A DNA stretch of 32,295 nt. Source: Nitrospirota bacterium (GTDB lineage Bacteria; Nitrospirota; Thermodesulfovibrionia; SZUA-242). Under the pieces are notes generated by a model. It searched no databases, had not been told where the DNA came from, and saw only the letters and a program-made list of their open reading frames with translations. Made by a program: the position numbers and the translations under genes. The stretch lies in NCBI GenBank assembly GCA_016212095.1, contig JACRHH010000013.1, forward strand, positions 1 to 32,295, in the 5' to 3' direction. Below, one piece after another: positions 14,719-18,996 of this stretch (positions are counted from its first letter, which is position 1; each line of letters starts with the position of its first letter).

Positions 14719-15759
14719 ATGATCTTCAAGGTTTTCGGGAAAAAGGAACTGCCCAGACTGTTTGATGTCATCGCCGTAAACCGCGTTGTCGGGCCGGTTC
14801 AGAAGGGAACCGACAAAAACGGCAGCCCGCTTCACACCTTCGGGGAGGTTCGCGATTTCGCCGAACTCTCCCTCGACTACAAAACCACGATACTTTCGGC
14901 CAAGCGGTTTGTGCTTCCGTTTCATGAAACCCTCTGCACCTTCCGGGTGACCGAAAACGGCTGGGAAAAGGACGTGGATTTCAACGTGCGCGGGCCGACC
15001 GTCTTCTTCGGACTCCACGCCTGCGACATCAACGCCTTCAACCGCCTCGACAAGGTGCTGATGGAGAGCGTCTATCCCACCCCTTATTACGCTTCCAAAC
15101 GAAAAAACATGTTCATCATCGGCACAAACTGCGAGCCGCAGCCATACTGCTTCTGCCGCTCGATGGGAACCGACACCGCGCTTCACGGCTTCGATCTCTT
15201 TTTAACCGACATAGGCGACCGCTACTTCGCCGAGGTTCAGTCGGCAACGGCCTACAATTTCCTTCTCCAGATAAAGACCGCCGACCCGAAGGAAAAGGAT
15301 CATCAGCGCTACATGGACGTTGTGGCCGAGAAGAACAAAAAATTCACCGCGCATGTGGACAACACAGACCTTACAAAAATACTCGACATGGAGTTTCAGT
15401 CGCAAGCGTGGAAGGAATGGGGCGACAAATGCCTCTCGTGCGGCACATGCGCCAATGTCTGCCCCACATGCTACTGCTACGGCGTGGAGGAGACGGTGGA
15501 CATGAACGCAACCGGCGCAAGGAAGATCAAGAGCCTGCATTCCTGCAACCTGATAGATTTCGCCGAGGTTGCGGGCGGCCACAACTTCCGCCCGGAGCGC
15601 CACAGCCGCCTGAAATACCGCTACTATCACAAGCATCGGGGCTTCGTGGAGGCGTTTGAAGAATCCCTCTGCGTGGGCTGCGGGCGCTGCGGCGAGGCGT
15701 GTCTGGCCGATATTACGGTTCCGGAAGTGATCGCGAGCGTTCGCGGGGAGGGACACTGA
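14719..15759 (+). CDS. hydB: [NiFe] hydrogenase (group 3b-like) beta subunit, 4Fe-4S protein
   Basis: Electron-transfer subunit of a cytoplasmic heterotetrameric hydrogenase, sometimes called sulfhydrogenase; homologous to the anaerobic sulfite reductase A subunit. The 346-aa product has a conserved N-terminal region with FFGLHACDINAF and two C-terminal 4Fe-4S motifs: CLSCGTCANVCPTC from about residue 237 and LCVGCGRCGEACLAD from about residue 317. A strong AGGAGG ribosome-binding site is at 14705-14710. It is the first gene of the beta-gamma-delta-alpha operon, the order known from Pyrococcus soluble hydrogenases. It likely carries electrons between the delta subunit clusters and the flavin of gamma. 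Confidence 0.92.
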   Translation: MIFKVFGKKELPRLFDVIAVNRVVGPVQKGTDKNGSPLHTFGEVRDFAELSLDYKTTILSAKRFVLPFHETLCTFRVTENGWEKDVDFNVRGPTVFFGLHACDINAFNRLDKVLMESVYPTPYYASKRKNMFIIGTNCEPQPYCFCRSMGTDTALHGFDLFLTDIGDRYFAEVQSATAYNFLLQIKTADPKEKDHQRYMDVVAEKNKKFTAHVDNTDLTKILDMEFQSQAWKEWGDKCLSCGTCANVCPTCYCYGVEETVDMNATGARKIKSLHSCNLIDFAEVAGGHNFRPERHSRLKYRYYHKHRGFVEAFEESLCVGCGRCGEACLADITVPEVIASVRGEGH

Positions 15760-15760
15760 C

Positions 15761-16663
15761 ATGGATAACAGACTGCCGCTTGTGGACATCATGGAAGAGG
15801 GAACACATCGCCGTCACGACGACATAGGAAGCTTCGAGTACACCTACAAGGCCGAGATCATGAACATCTACCCAATGACCGCCAGCGAGAAGCTCTACCA
15901 GATTCAGATCATCGAGCCTGACAGGCGCAACCGTTTTTCGTTCCAGCCGGGCCAGTTTGTGATGCTTGAGATTCCGGGCGTGGGCGAGGCTCCGTTTTCG
16001 ATCTCGTCGTCGCCCATCCGCCACGGATTTGTCGAGCTCTGCATCAGAAACGTGGGCAACCTCACCGGATTTCTTGCCCGGATGCAGAGGGGCGCGCAGA
16101 TCGGCATACGCGGCCCGTTCGGCACGCAGTTTCCGGTTGGCGAAATGGAAGGCTCCGACGTGCTGCTTGTCGCCGGCGGGCTTGGCATTGTGCCGCTTCG
16201 CTCGGCCATTCTAACCGTGCTCGAAAACCGCAGCCGCTACGGCAGCGTGGATATTGTCTACGGCGCGAAAACGCCGTCGGAGCTTCTGTTTACCTATCAG
16301 TATGAGATGTGGCGCAAGTTCGACATCAACCTGAGCATCATCGTTGAAACGCCCGACGATGAGTGGAAAGGCCCGACCGGGTTTCTCACCCGAATTCTGG
16401 AAGACCGCGTGGCCCAGGCCGGAGCAAATTTCGCCGCAAACACATACGCCATTGTCTGCGGCCCGCCGGTGATGTTCAAGCACGTCTGCGGAATGCTCAC
16501 AAAGGCCGGAATACCGATGCAGAAGATGTTTGTCTCGCTGGAGCGCCGGATGCACTGCGGACGCGGGAAATGCTGCCGGTGCAATATCGGATCGACCTAC
16601 ACATGCCTGAAAGGCCCGGTGTTCGACTACTGGAGCATCATGAACCTGAAGGAGGCGATCTGA
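15761..16663 (+). CDS. hydG: [NiFe] hydrogenase gamma subunit, FAD/NAD(P)-binding with 2Fe-2S
   Basis: A ferredoxin-NADP reductase-like diaphorase subunit of 300 aa. The FAD site includes PGQFVMLEIPGVGEAPFSIS (about residues 65-84). The NAD(P)-binding region has VLLVAGGLGIVPLRSAI near residue 135. A cysteine motif CGRGKCCRCNIG near residue 266 is a 2Fe-2S ligand set as in dihydroorotate dehydrogenase B-type electron transfer subunits. It lies one base after the beta gene and one base before delta. It is expected to exchange electrons with NADP(H) or NAD(H); the preferred cofactor cannot be decided by eye. The symbol follows Pyrococcus usage and is not the [FeFe]-hydrogenase maturase HydG. Confidence 0.9.
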   Translation: MDNRLPLVDIMEEGTHRRHDDIGSFEYTYKAEIMNIYPMTASEKLYQIQIIEPDRRNRFSFQPGQFVMLEIPGVGEAPFSISSSPIRHGFVELCIRNVGNLTGFLARMQRGAQIGIRGPFGTQFPVGEMEGSDVLLVAGGLGIVPLRSAILTVLENRSRYGSVDIVYGAKTPSELLFTYQYEMWRKFDINLSIIVETPDDEWKGPTGFLTRILEDRVAQAGANFAANTYAIVCGPPVMFKHVCGMLTKAGIPMQKMFVSLERRMHCGRGKCCRCNIGSTYTCLKGPVFDYWSIMNLKEAI

Positions 16664-16664
16664 C

Positions 16665-17534
16665 ATGACTCAGGAACGAACATATCTTGGCGTGCCGCTT
16701 CACAAGCCGAAGGTGGCCTTCTTCGAACTGAGCTCGTGCGAGGGCTGCCAGTTGCAGATTGTGAACAACGAGGCCACTCTTCTGGATTTTCTGTCGCTGG
16801 TAGAAATCGTGAACTTCCGCGAGGCGATGACAGAGCGCTCGAACGACTACGAAATCGCGTTTGTGGAGGGCAGCGTGACCCGCGCCGACGAGATTACGCG
16901 GCTTACCGAAATTCGCAGAAACGCCGCCGTGCTGGTTGCGCTTGGAAGCTGCGCCTGCTTCGGCGGCGTGAACCAGCTTAAAAACCGCTTTCACGACATC
17001 GCGTGGGTGAAAAAAGAGGTTTACGGCAAGCATCCGGTTGAAACAGAGGCCGAGGCCAAGCCGCTTGAAGCCTTTGTGCGAGTAGATCTAAAAATATTCG
17101 GATGCCCGATAAAGAAGGAAGAGGTGGAAAAGATCGTGACGAACGTTGCGCTTGGGCGGCCTGTGCAGCATCCGAAGTTTCCGGTCTGCATGGAATGCAA
17201 GGCGAACGAGAACATCTGCCTGTTCGACCTGGGCGAGCCCTGCCTTGGCCCGGTTACGCGGGCGGGCTGCGATTCATGGTGCCCGAACAGCCGCATGGGC
17301 TGCTGGGGCTGCCGCGGCCCGGCGGACGACGCCAACGTGGAGCAACTGAGGAACATCGCGAAAAAACACGGTATTTCTGCCGAGGCGATGCTCGACAGGC
17401 TGGAATGCTTCGGCGGCTTTGCGTCGCATGTAGATGAGATCAGGGGCAAGGCGAAAGCCAAAAAAACGGCTTCGGCGGCAAAGGGGGGAGTTAATCCACC
17501 ATCCTCCCCTTTGGGAAAGGGGAGGAGACGATGA
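16665..17534 (+). CDS. hydD: [NiFe] hydrogenase delta (small) subunit
   Basis: Small subunit with the NADH:ubiquinone oxidoreductase 20-kDa fold. LSSCEGCQ at residues 22-29 gives the first two cysteines of the proximal 4Fe-4S cluster, with GSCACFGG and a later CLGPVTRAGC region. Further cysteines in CMECKANENIC and GCWGCRG fit additional clusters. No twin-arginine signal is present, so the enzyme is cytoplasmic, as in group 3. The last 17 residues (273-289, from KGGVNPP) are encoded by a GC-rich repeat element and look like an added tail. The stop overlaps the alpha start (ATGA). Confidence 0.93.
   Translation: MTQERTYLGVPLHKPKVAFFELSSCEGCQLQIVNNEATLLDFLSLVEIVNFREAMTERSNDYEIAFVEGSVTRADEITRLTEIRRNAAVLVALGSCACFGGVNQLKNRFHDIAWVKKEVYGKHPVETEAEAKPLEAFVRVDLKIFGCPIKKEEVEKIVTNVALGRPVQHPKFPVCMECKANENICLFDLGEPCLGPVTRAGCDSWCPNSRMGCWGCRGPADDANVEQLRNIAKKHGISAEAMLDRLECFGGFASHVDEIRGKAKAKKTASAAKGGVNPPSSPLGKGRRR
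17484..17527. repeat. GC-rich palindromic repeat at the delta/alpha gene junction
   Basis: CCTCCCCTTT (17503-17512) and AAAGGGGAGG (17516-17525) form a perfect 10-bp stem with a GGG loop, preceded by a G-rich run and TTAATCCACC. The element supplies the last residues of the delta protein and the GGGGAGGAG ribosome-binding site of the alpha gene. A related larger palindrome lies at 22887-22933. Confidence 0.7.
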
Positions 17535-18805
17535 AAGTATCCTGCAACGTAAACGTGCATCATCTCACAAGGGTTGAGGGCCACGGCAACATTCAGATTC
17601 GCATACGAAACGGCAAGGTGGAGACAGCCCAATGGGAGGTGGTGGAAACCCCGCGCTTTTTTGAGGCGATGCTTGTGGGCAAGAACTGGGACAACGCGCC
17701 CTGGATCTGCGGCAGAATCTGCGGCATATGCTCCATCGGCCACACGCTTGCAAGCATTCGCGGCATCGAAAACGCCTTCGGCATTGTGCCGAGCGAGCAG
17801 ACCCGCAAGCTTCGCATTCTGCTGAAGCATATGGAGACGCTTCAAAGCCATGTGCTGCACCTCTATTTTCTGGCCGCGCCCGATTTCCTGAACCTGGGCA
17901 GCGTGATTCCGCTTGTCGAGGCGAACCCCGGCGTGGTAAAAATGGCTGCCGGACTGAAGCTGTTGGCAAACGACGCCTGCGATGTTATCGGCGGACGGCG
18001 GCTTCATCCCACGCGAACCGTTGTTGGCGGGTTTACGATGCTGCCCGAAAAGGGCCAGCTTGAGGCGATAAAAAAGCGGCTTGAAGCGGCAATGGCCGAT
18101 CTGGTGAAAACCGCCGACATCTTCCGCACGTTCAAGATTCCGGCCTTTGTGCGGGAGACCGAGTTTGTATCGCTTGGAAGCGCAAAGGAATACCCGTTCA
18201 TCGGCGGCGATCTTGTATCCACCGACGGCGTGCGCAAGCCGGAACACGAGTACAGGAAGATGACGAACGAATATTGCGTGGAGCAATCGACATCGAAGTG
18301 GAGCAGGCTATCCCGGAAATCGTTTGCCGTGGGCGCGCTTGCCCGCCTGAACAACAACTTCGCCATGCTGCATCCGGAGGCGCGAAAGCTGTCGGAGAGC
18401 TTCGGCCTTGAGCCGGTGAATCATAACCCGTACATGAACAACATCGCCCAGCTTGTGGAATGCGTTCATGTCACGCTCGATTCCATCGCGATAATAGACG
18501 AGCTTCTCGGCTCAAAGTGGGACGAGCCGCGCCAGCCGGTTACGCCCAAAAGCGGCGTGGGCGTGGGCGCGGTCGAGGTTCCGCGCGGGATTTTATACCA
18601 CTGCTACGAGTTCGACGCGAAGGGCAAGATCGTGAAATCTGATTGCATCATACCCACAAGCCAGAACCACGCCAATATCCAGCACGACATCGAGGAACTG
18701 GCGCGGGTAAGCGGCGACAGCGGCAAAAAGGACGAGGAGATAGAGTTGCTGGCCTCCATGCTTGTGCGGGCGTATGACCCGTGCATCTCGTGCTCGGTGC
18801 ATTGA
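17531..18805 (+). CDS. hydA: [NiFe] hydrogenase alpha (large, catalytic) subunit, no C-terminal extension
   Basis: Large subunit that carries the NiFe(CN)2CO site and splits or makes H2. The 424-aa product has the L1 motif RICGICSIGH at 62-71 (Cys64, Cys67) and the L2 motif DPCISCSVH at 416-424 (Cys418, Cys421), so all four nickel ligands are present. The frame ends with TGA directly after His424. Most large subunits carry a short tail after this His that a maturation protease removes; none is present here. Sequence and subunit order point to group 3b. No maturation genes (hyp, protease) are in the window. The start overlaps delta, and its ribosome-binding site lies in a hairpin. Confidence 0.95.
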   Translation: MKVSCNVNVHHLTRVEGHGNIQIRIRNGKVETAQWEVVETPRFFEAMLVGKNWDNAPWICGRICGICSIGHTLASIRGIENAFGIVPSEQTRKLRILLKHMETLQSHVLHLYFLAAPDFLNLGSVIPLVEANPGVVKMAAGLKLLANDACDVIGGRRLHPTRTVVGGFTMLPEKGQLEAIKKRLEAAMADLVKTADIFRTFKIPAFVRETEFVSLGSAKEYPFIGGDLVSTDGVRKPEHEYRKMTNEYCVEQSTSKWSRLSRKSFAVGALARLNNNFAMLHPEARKLSESFGLEPVNHNPYMNNIAQLVECVHVTLDSIAIIDELLGSKWDEPRQPVTPKSGVGVGAVEVPRGILYHCYEFDAKGKIVKSDCIIPTSQNHANIQHDIEELARVSGDSGKKDEEIELLASMLVRAYDPCISCSVH

Positions 18806-18847
18806 GGCCTGCATGTGTCACCCTGACCGGTGGCATATTGCAAATGA

Positions 18848-18881
18848 CAAAACCCCGAAGGGATTGCCTTGCGGGGTTTTG
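18848..18881. terminator. Bidirectional terminator between hydrogenase operon and tRNA-Asn
   Basis: CAAAACCCCG at 18848-18857 and CGGGGTTTTG at 18872-18881 form a perfect 10-bp stem, and AAGG/CCTT pairs inside it. The T4 and A4 runs belong to the stem arms, giving a T-run on either strand. It can end the hydrogenase transcript (plus) and the tRNA transcript (minus). Confidence 0.8.
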
Positions 18882-18920
18882 CGCTTACTGAAAACCGCTG
18901 GAGTTCAGCGGACTGTTTTT

Positions 18921-18996
18921 TGGCTCCCGGGGAGGGATTCGAACCCCCGACAGGGTGGTTAACAGCCACCTGCTCTGCCGGCTGAGCTACCCGGGA
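18921..18996 (-). tRNA. tRNA-Asn (anticodon GUU), CCA encoded
   Basis: On the minus strand the 5' acceptor arm TCCCGGG (18990-18996) pairs with CCCGGGA (18925-18931), with G as discriminator base and an encoded CCA at 18921-18923. The D arm is TAGCTCAGCCGGCAGAGCA, the anticodon loop CTGTTAA between GGTGG and CCACC, and the T arm contains GGTTCGAATCC. Anticodon GTT reads Asn codons AAC and AAU. It stands alone between the hydrogenase operon and nifJ. No integrase is nearby. Confidence 0.97.

Follow-up and report, generated by a model that had tools for sequence, protein, structure and literature searches.

A group 3b [NiFe]-hydrogenase large subunit of Nitrospirota that ends at its metal-site histidine and very likely matures without a protease

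The window analysed here, 32,295 nucleotides of a Nitrospirota genome, carries a group 3b [NiFe]-hydrogenase operon whose large subunit, HydA, terminates at the last histidine of its C-terminal metal-site motif. All 80 informative relatives share this stop, which upholds the claim of the first-pass annotation that the subunit ends at the metal-site histidine. We put at roughly 0.9 the probability that HydA is translated in its mature form, that the lineage of the window matures the enzyme without a protease and that the C-terminal tail and the protease HycI were lost together in an ancestor. The features of the operon and of the hydA end are as follows:

14719-15759, plus strand: hydB, 4Fe-4S beta subunit (NCBIfam ShyB, 6e-74)
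15761-16663, plus strand: hydG, FAD/NAD(P)-binding gamma subunit (NCBIfam HydG, 5e-66; NAD/FAD-binding domains)
16665-17534, plus strand: hydD, hydrogenase small (delta) subunit (NCBIfam HydD, 4e-51; Pfam Oxidored_q6)
17531-18805, plus strand: hydA, predicted group 3b [NiFe]-hydrogenase large (alpha) subunit, 424 amino acids, without a C-terminal extension (NCBIfam, translation, relatives)
17714-17731, plus strand: N-terminal metal-site motif RICGIC with two Cys ligands (translation and sequence)
18776-18802, plus strand: C-terminal metal-site motif DPCISCSVH, whose last His is the last residue (translation; identical end in the 80 informative relatives)
18803-18805, plus strand: TGA stop immediately 3' of the motif His (position fixed, codon variable among relatives)
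18806-18826, plus strand: six more codons, GLHVSP, then a second TGA at 18824-18826 (not conserved, not a coding remnant)
18810-18842, plus strand: hairpin 3' of the hydA stop in a SECIS-like position (-17.2 kcal/mol, z -2.26; not conserved in relatives)

The best NCBIfam models for the hydA product were HydA (8e-82) and ShyA (1e-78), with bit scores of 275.6 and 264.7 against 152 and 139 for VhuA/FrhA. These scores lie under the P. furiosus equivalog cut-offs, indicating a member of the family and not an equivalog. The HydA match reaches position 422 of 426 and the ShyA match position 411 of 415, approximately the cleavage site, just before the tail. Since hydA is nearest to HydA/ShyA and is preceded by HydB, HydG and HydD, we assign the operon, from its sequence, to the cytoplasmic HydBGDA hydrogenases of group 3b, predicted to be NAD(P)-linked. 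The four-gene order B-G-D-A and two intact CxxC metal motifs, RICGIC and DPCISC, agree with group 3b, whereas its usual C-terminal extension is absent and the operon holds no protease gene. Removal of the extension by HycI/FrxA is usual in group 3b but does not strictly define it. The order HydB-HydG-HydD-HydA is common to tailed and tail-less loci, and the full operon with its FAD/NAD(P) module was found in 70 of the 80 relatives, the rest being truncated at contig ends or escaping detection.

Eighty HydA relatives were fetched from public genome contigs (68-79% identity, mostly Nitrospirota and Desulfobacterota). All 79 with the 3' end present terminate exactly at the codon for the motif His, the remaining locus (L052) being uninformative because a contig end cuts hydA. 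A more distant relative (L138, 59% identity) terminates at the same residue, bringing the count to 80 of 80 informative relatives at 59-79% identity; among them is an isolate with a complete genome, Desulfosediminicola flagellatus (L097). The stop codon in the tail-less clade of the window is TGA in 45 cases, TAA in 22 and TAG in 21, including seven re-fetched duplicates. Comparison of the DNA with that of relatives showed codons aligned and conserved up to the hydA stop and similarity gone directly after it. The common end, the varied stop codons and the loss of similarity past the stop exclude sequence error, a decaying tail and general readthrough. Judged by this comparison, the stop is genuine, and the clade, which spans two phyla, has lacked the tail for a long time rather than losing it by recent decay. 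The first-pass annotation had named the alignment of group 3b relatives as a check and tailed close homologues, along with a read error at the TGA, as an outcome that would count against it; none of the 80 has a tail, which favours the tail-less reading.

Translation of 17531-18826 gives ...MLVRAYDPCISCSVH, a stop, GLHVSP and a second stop. The suggestion that GLHVSP is the remains of a lost tail did not hold up: the DNA downstream of the stop is not conserved, and the peptide differs from the tails of sister clades (FLDVKFVNR, LLNVKFVNR). Further downstream, a likely intrinsic terminator (CAAAACCCCG...CGGGGTTTTG; window 18845-18996) separates hydA from a tRNA-Asn gene running towards it on the minus strand and could act for both.

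The wider comparison set comprised 395 related genomes. The nearest tailed clade (25 sequences, 45-53% identity) has tails of 7-9 residues, typically FLDVKFVNR-like, and a second tailed clade (16 sequences, 33-37% identity) has tails of 8-12 residues; two further group 3b sequences carry the tail LLEV. The earlier statement that many group 3 enzymes have tails is thus borne out for the sister group 3b clades, at 7-12 residues. A second tail-less clade (16 sequences, 35-41% identity) ends in DPCFSCSVH or DPCLSCSVH. On a group 3b tree built without the last nine alignment columns the tail state switches twice. A single origin of all tail-less subunits was considered and rejected, as the AU test spoke against one common clade of all tail-less rows (p = 0.004). 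Two separate losses are the simplest reading because both clades lie among tailed sequences and tails are the rule in the family; parsimony alone gives no direction, and it is we who infer loss, from a tree with long branches and a two-loss result that shares the assumptions of the model.

The C-terminal strand always reads ...SVH in the tail-less forms and ...[ST/AT/SA/SS]H in nearly all tailed ones. Val precedes the last His in 97 of 97 tail-less rows, a position where tailed rows mostly have Thr, Ala or Ser; though based on few independent events, this hints at a link between the Val-His end and the tail-less state. As a cause of tail loss we rejected this Val: four short-tailed rows have it too, as do the T. 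kodakarensis and P. furiosus enzymes, and the tail-less state has only two independent origins, so we regard it as a correlation.

Of 43 tailed loci, 25 carry a HycI-family gene on the hydA strand, in 24 cases directly after hydA; among the 97 tail-less loci (104 minus seven duplicates) none does. Eighteen of the 43 tailed loci have no nearby HycI either, hence absence from a locus alone proves little. At the level of the genome, HycI was present in all 28 tailed genomes checked, and profile searches with PF01750 and TIGR00072 detected none in seven tail-less-only genomes; TIGR00072 found the protease in five of five positive controls. Five protease-free genomes belong to the clade of the window (G109, 99% complete; G134, 100%; G005, 100%; G040, 88%; G106, 96%) and two to the second tail-less clade (G067, 100%; G118, 93%). 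Most relatives are metagenome-assembled genomes, and the absence of HycI is read from these estimates of 88-100% completeness and two profile models. In each of the seven, no PF00374 match other than tail-less HydA passes the cut-off, and HypD is present, surrounded by HypC, HypA, HypB and HypE in G106 and by HypA, HypB, HypF and HypE in G067. G005 and G040 (L242) have a more divergent HypD, with E values near 1e-127 where the others give about 1e-150, and in G005 no second Hyp gene was recognised among its immediate neighbours. In G154 (89% complete), which likewise has tail-less HydA only, a HycI gene sits at the edge of a contig.

The genome of the window contains one HycI (C11:114885-115271), which shares an operon with the small subunit of a group 1 hydrogenase, its large subunit with a 15-residue tail, and a cytochrome b. 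The lack of a protease in tail-less loci, the seven HycI-free genomes and the position of the only HycI of this genome beside a tailed hydrogenase point to protease-free maturation, which we consider very likely for the lineage of the window. The search for HycI/FrxA-type proteases that the first-pass annotation had called for came out in its favour, and maturation without a protease, as it had proposed, is the best reading of the missing tail and the HycI pattern together.

Tail-less HydA might instead serve, without being an active hydrogenase, as a sensor in the manner of the tail-less regulatory hydrogenases or as a cofactor scaffold in the manner of HoxV. H2 sensors are indeed the best-known tail-less large subunits (PMC7294309), and HoxV is a scaffold resembling a large subunit (PMC12134894). 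This explanation, which we hold to be improbable, is at odds with the intact Cys motifs of HydA and with the complete operon and FAD/NAD(P) module around it in those 70 relatives. Moreover, as HydA is the sole large subunit in seven genomes, no partner enzyme exists there to sense for or to feed. The tail-less enzyme is taken here as a putatively active hydrogenase.

A second alternative is that the UGA is read through, sometimes or always and perhaps as selenocysteine, to give a seven-residue tail, UGLHVSP. The genome of the window has selB and a strong match to tRNA-Sec, in-frame UGAs lie within another of its hydrogenase genes, and a hairpin follows the hydA stop. Among relatives, however, TAA and TAG together are about as frequent as TGA at the stop position, and conservation extends to neither the codons past the stop nor the hairpin. 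We rejected selenocysteine insertion or readthrough as a general mechanism on the TAA and TAG codons and the lack of a shared downstream structure, and in the window itself it is very unlikely. The hairpin at 18810-18842 has no Rfam match and is probably plain 3' UTR. hydA contains no internal UGA of the kind that, read as selenocysteine, marks [NiFeSe] enzymes and other selenoproteins.

The other hydrogenase gene with in-frame UGAs is of interest in itself. It encodes the group 1 large subunit of the window genome (G000, C11:112405-113949; L002, L006) and has TGA at both cysteines of the N-terminal motif, RI(TGA)GV(TGA)TTVH; the C-terminal motif still has its Cys residues (DPCMSCAVH, with a tail of 15 amino acids). 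The same TGA pair was seen in 14 of 14 such loci read (L002, L006, L205 and L217-L228 are listed), and two TGAs occur in a group 1 large-subunit gene in 21 genomes. With selB and tRNA-Sec present, G000 is predicted to decode UGA as selenocysteine. Known [NiFeSe] enzymes have selenocysteine in the C-terminal motif, and the hydrogenase passages of a 2026 selenoproteome review do not name an N-terminal pair; the RIUGVUTTVH hydrogenase is possibly a new type of selenoenzyme. In a sister group 1 clade (L204, L207, L229-L234) a single TGA stands at the second motif cysteine, R(F/I)CGV(TGA)T(T/S)VH, in eight of eight loci read, and a relative (L235) has Cys at both positions, completing a C-C, C-U, U-U series. 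Single-sequence folds often place a hairpin about 20 nt past the last TGA of the group 1 gene; consensus folding gave no covariation support for it.

The closest known counterpart of the window operon is soluble hydrogenase I (SHI) of Pyrococcus furiosus, which has the same HydBGDA set, a large subunit homologous over its whole length and the mature end DPCISCSVH. SHI is made with a four-residue tail, -VVRL, that HydA lacks and that the protease FrxA must cut off before SHI is active (PMC2865534). In solved group 3b enzymes from T. kodakarensis and P. furiosus, the 428-residue chains run on for four residues past the same SVH. A protease of another family, or self-processing, might still act on HydA, and a non-HycI protease would lie beyond the reach of the searches made; there are, however, no residues past the HydA His to remove, and processing in P. 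furiosus takes off exactly those past the same SVH (PMC2865534), leaving this explanation little room. Least probable of all is a tailed gene truncated by sequencing error or recent pseudogenisation, for which the short open stretch after the stop could be cited, against the identical end in every informative relative, a complete isolate genome included, and the lack of coding conservation past it.

Tailed group 3b enzymes of the same phylum have the same operon and 33-53% identity to the HydA of the window; they differ in carrying mostly 7-12-residue tails after DPCISC[SA][TAS]H, often with HycI directly downstream. A 2020 paper gives 2b, 2d, 4c, 4e and 4g as the prominent naturally tail-less groups and does not name 3b (PMC7294309). 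The H2 sensors (2b, 2d), CooH (4c), Ech (4e) and 4g have no extension and apparently undergo ordinary Hyp maturation (PMC7294309), as we propose for HydA. HydA likewise has nothing after the terminal motif His/Arg, but it lacks the subunit type and partners of groups 2 and 4, being a 3b, cytoplasmic and predicted NAD(P)-linked enzyme. We found no description of a tail-less group 3b enzyme in the literature searched, most of it outside subscription journals. The class of tail-less maturation is already known; what is new is the group, 3b, in which tail and protease have cleanly disappeared together. In D. flagellatus a second large subunit (L206, 12624-13910), nearest to VhuA and thus group 3c-like, lies about 6 kb downstream of the tail-less HydA and ends at its motif, DPCIACATH-TAA, so that other types of group 3 may have tail-less members too.

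For protease-free maturation of HydA we propose the following course. The usual Hyp proteins would supply first the Fe(CN)2CO group and next nickel; the DPCISCSVH strand would then close over the site, with no tail to cut. The ancestor of the window's clade would have lost the tail along with the HycI-family gene that follows hydA in many tailed relatives, and the second group 3b clade would have lost both separately. In one proposal the tail keeps the site open for nickel insertion, and its cleavage afterwards allows the C-terminus to fold shut (PMC12134894, PMC6769069). As the HydA chain is born with the mature sequence, Hyp-driven insertion would have to take place without this latch. That it can is known from the R. 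eutropha regulatory hydrogenase and, with lower efficiency, from HoxGproc, the R. eutropha MBH large subunit with the tail deleted genetically, in which cofactor insertion is possible without tail or cleavage; unlike HydA, HoxGproc is engineered, matures less well and belongs to a membrane-bound enzyme (PMC7294309).

Opinions differ on whether nickel proofreading requires the tail and its protease, since tail deletions inactivate some hydrogenases, among them E. coli Hyd-2 and R. eutropha SH, and not others (PMC7294309). That a quality-control step falls away with the tail, as the first-pass annotation had it, is conjectural: nickel is loaded stoichiometrically even into the tail-less R. eutropha regulatory hydrogenase (PMC7294309), so another check may take over; in HydA, nickel loading may be checked otherwise, for example through small-subunit binding. 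For the broader proposal, that the group 3b tail was lost at least twice together with its protease, that several lineages rely on Hyp proteins only and that the C-terminal strand may now gate the site until nickel arrives, we see even odds.

Within one operon architecture, group 3b thus offers tailed enzymes with an adjoining protease gene and tail-less enzymes from protease-free genomes, a natural experiment open to repetition at the bench. Production in other hosts might also be easier with a tail-less 3b enzyme, because P. furiosus SHI was inactive in E. coli unless the P. furiosus protease was added (PMC2865534).
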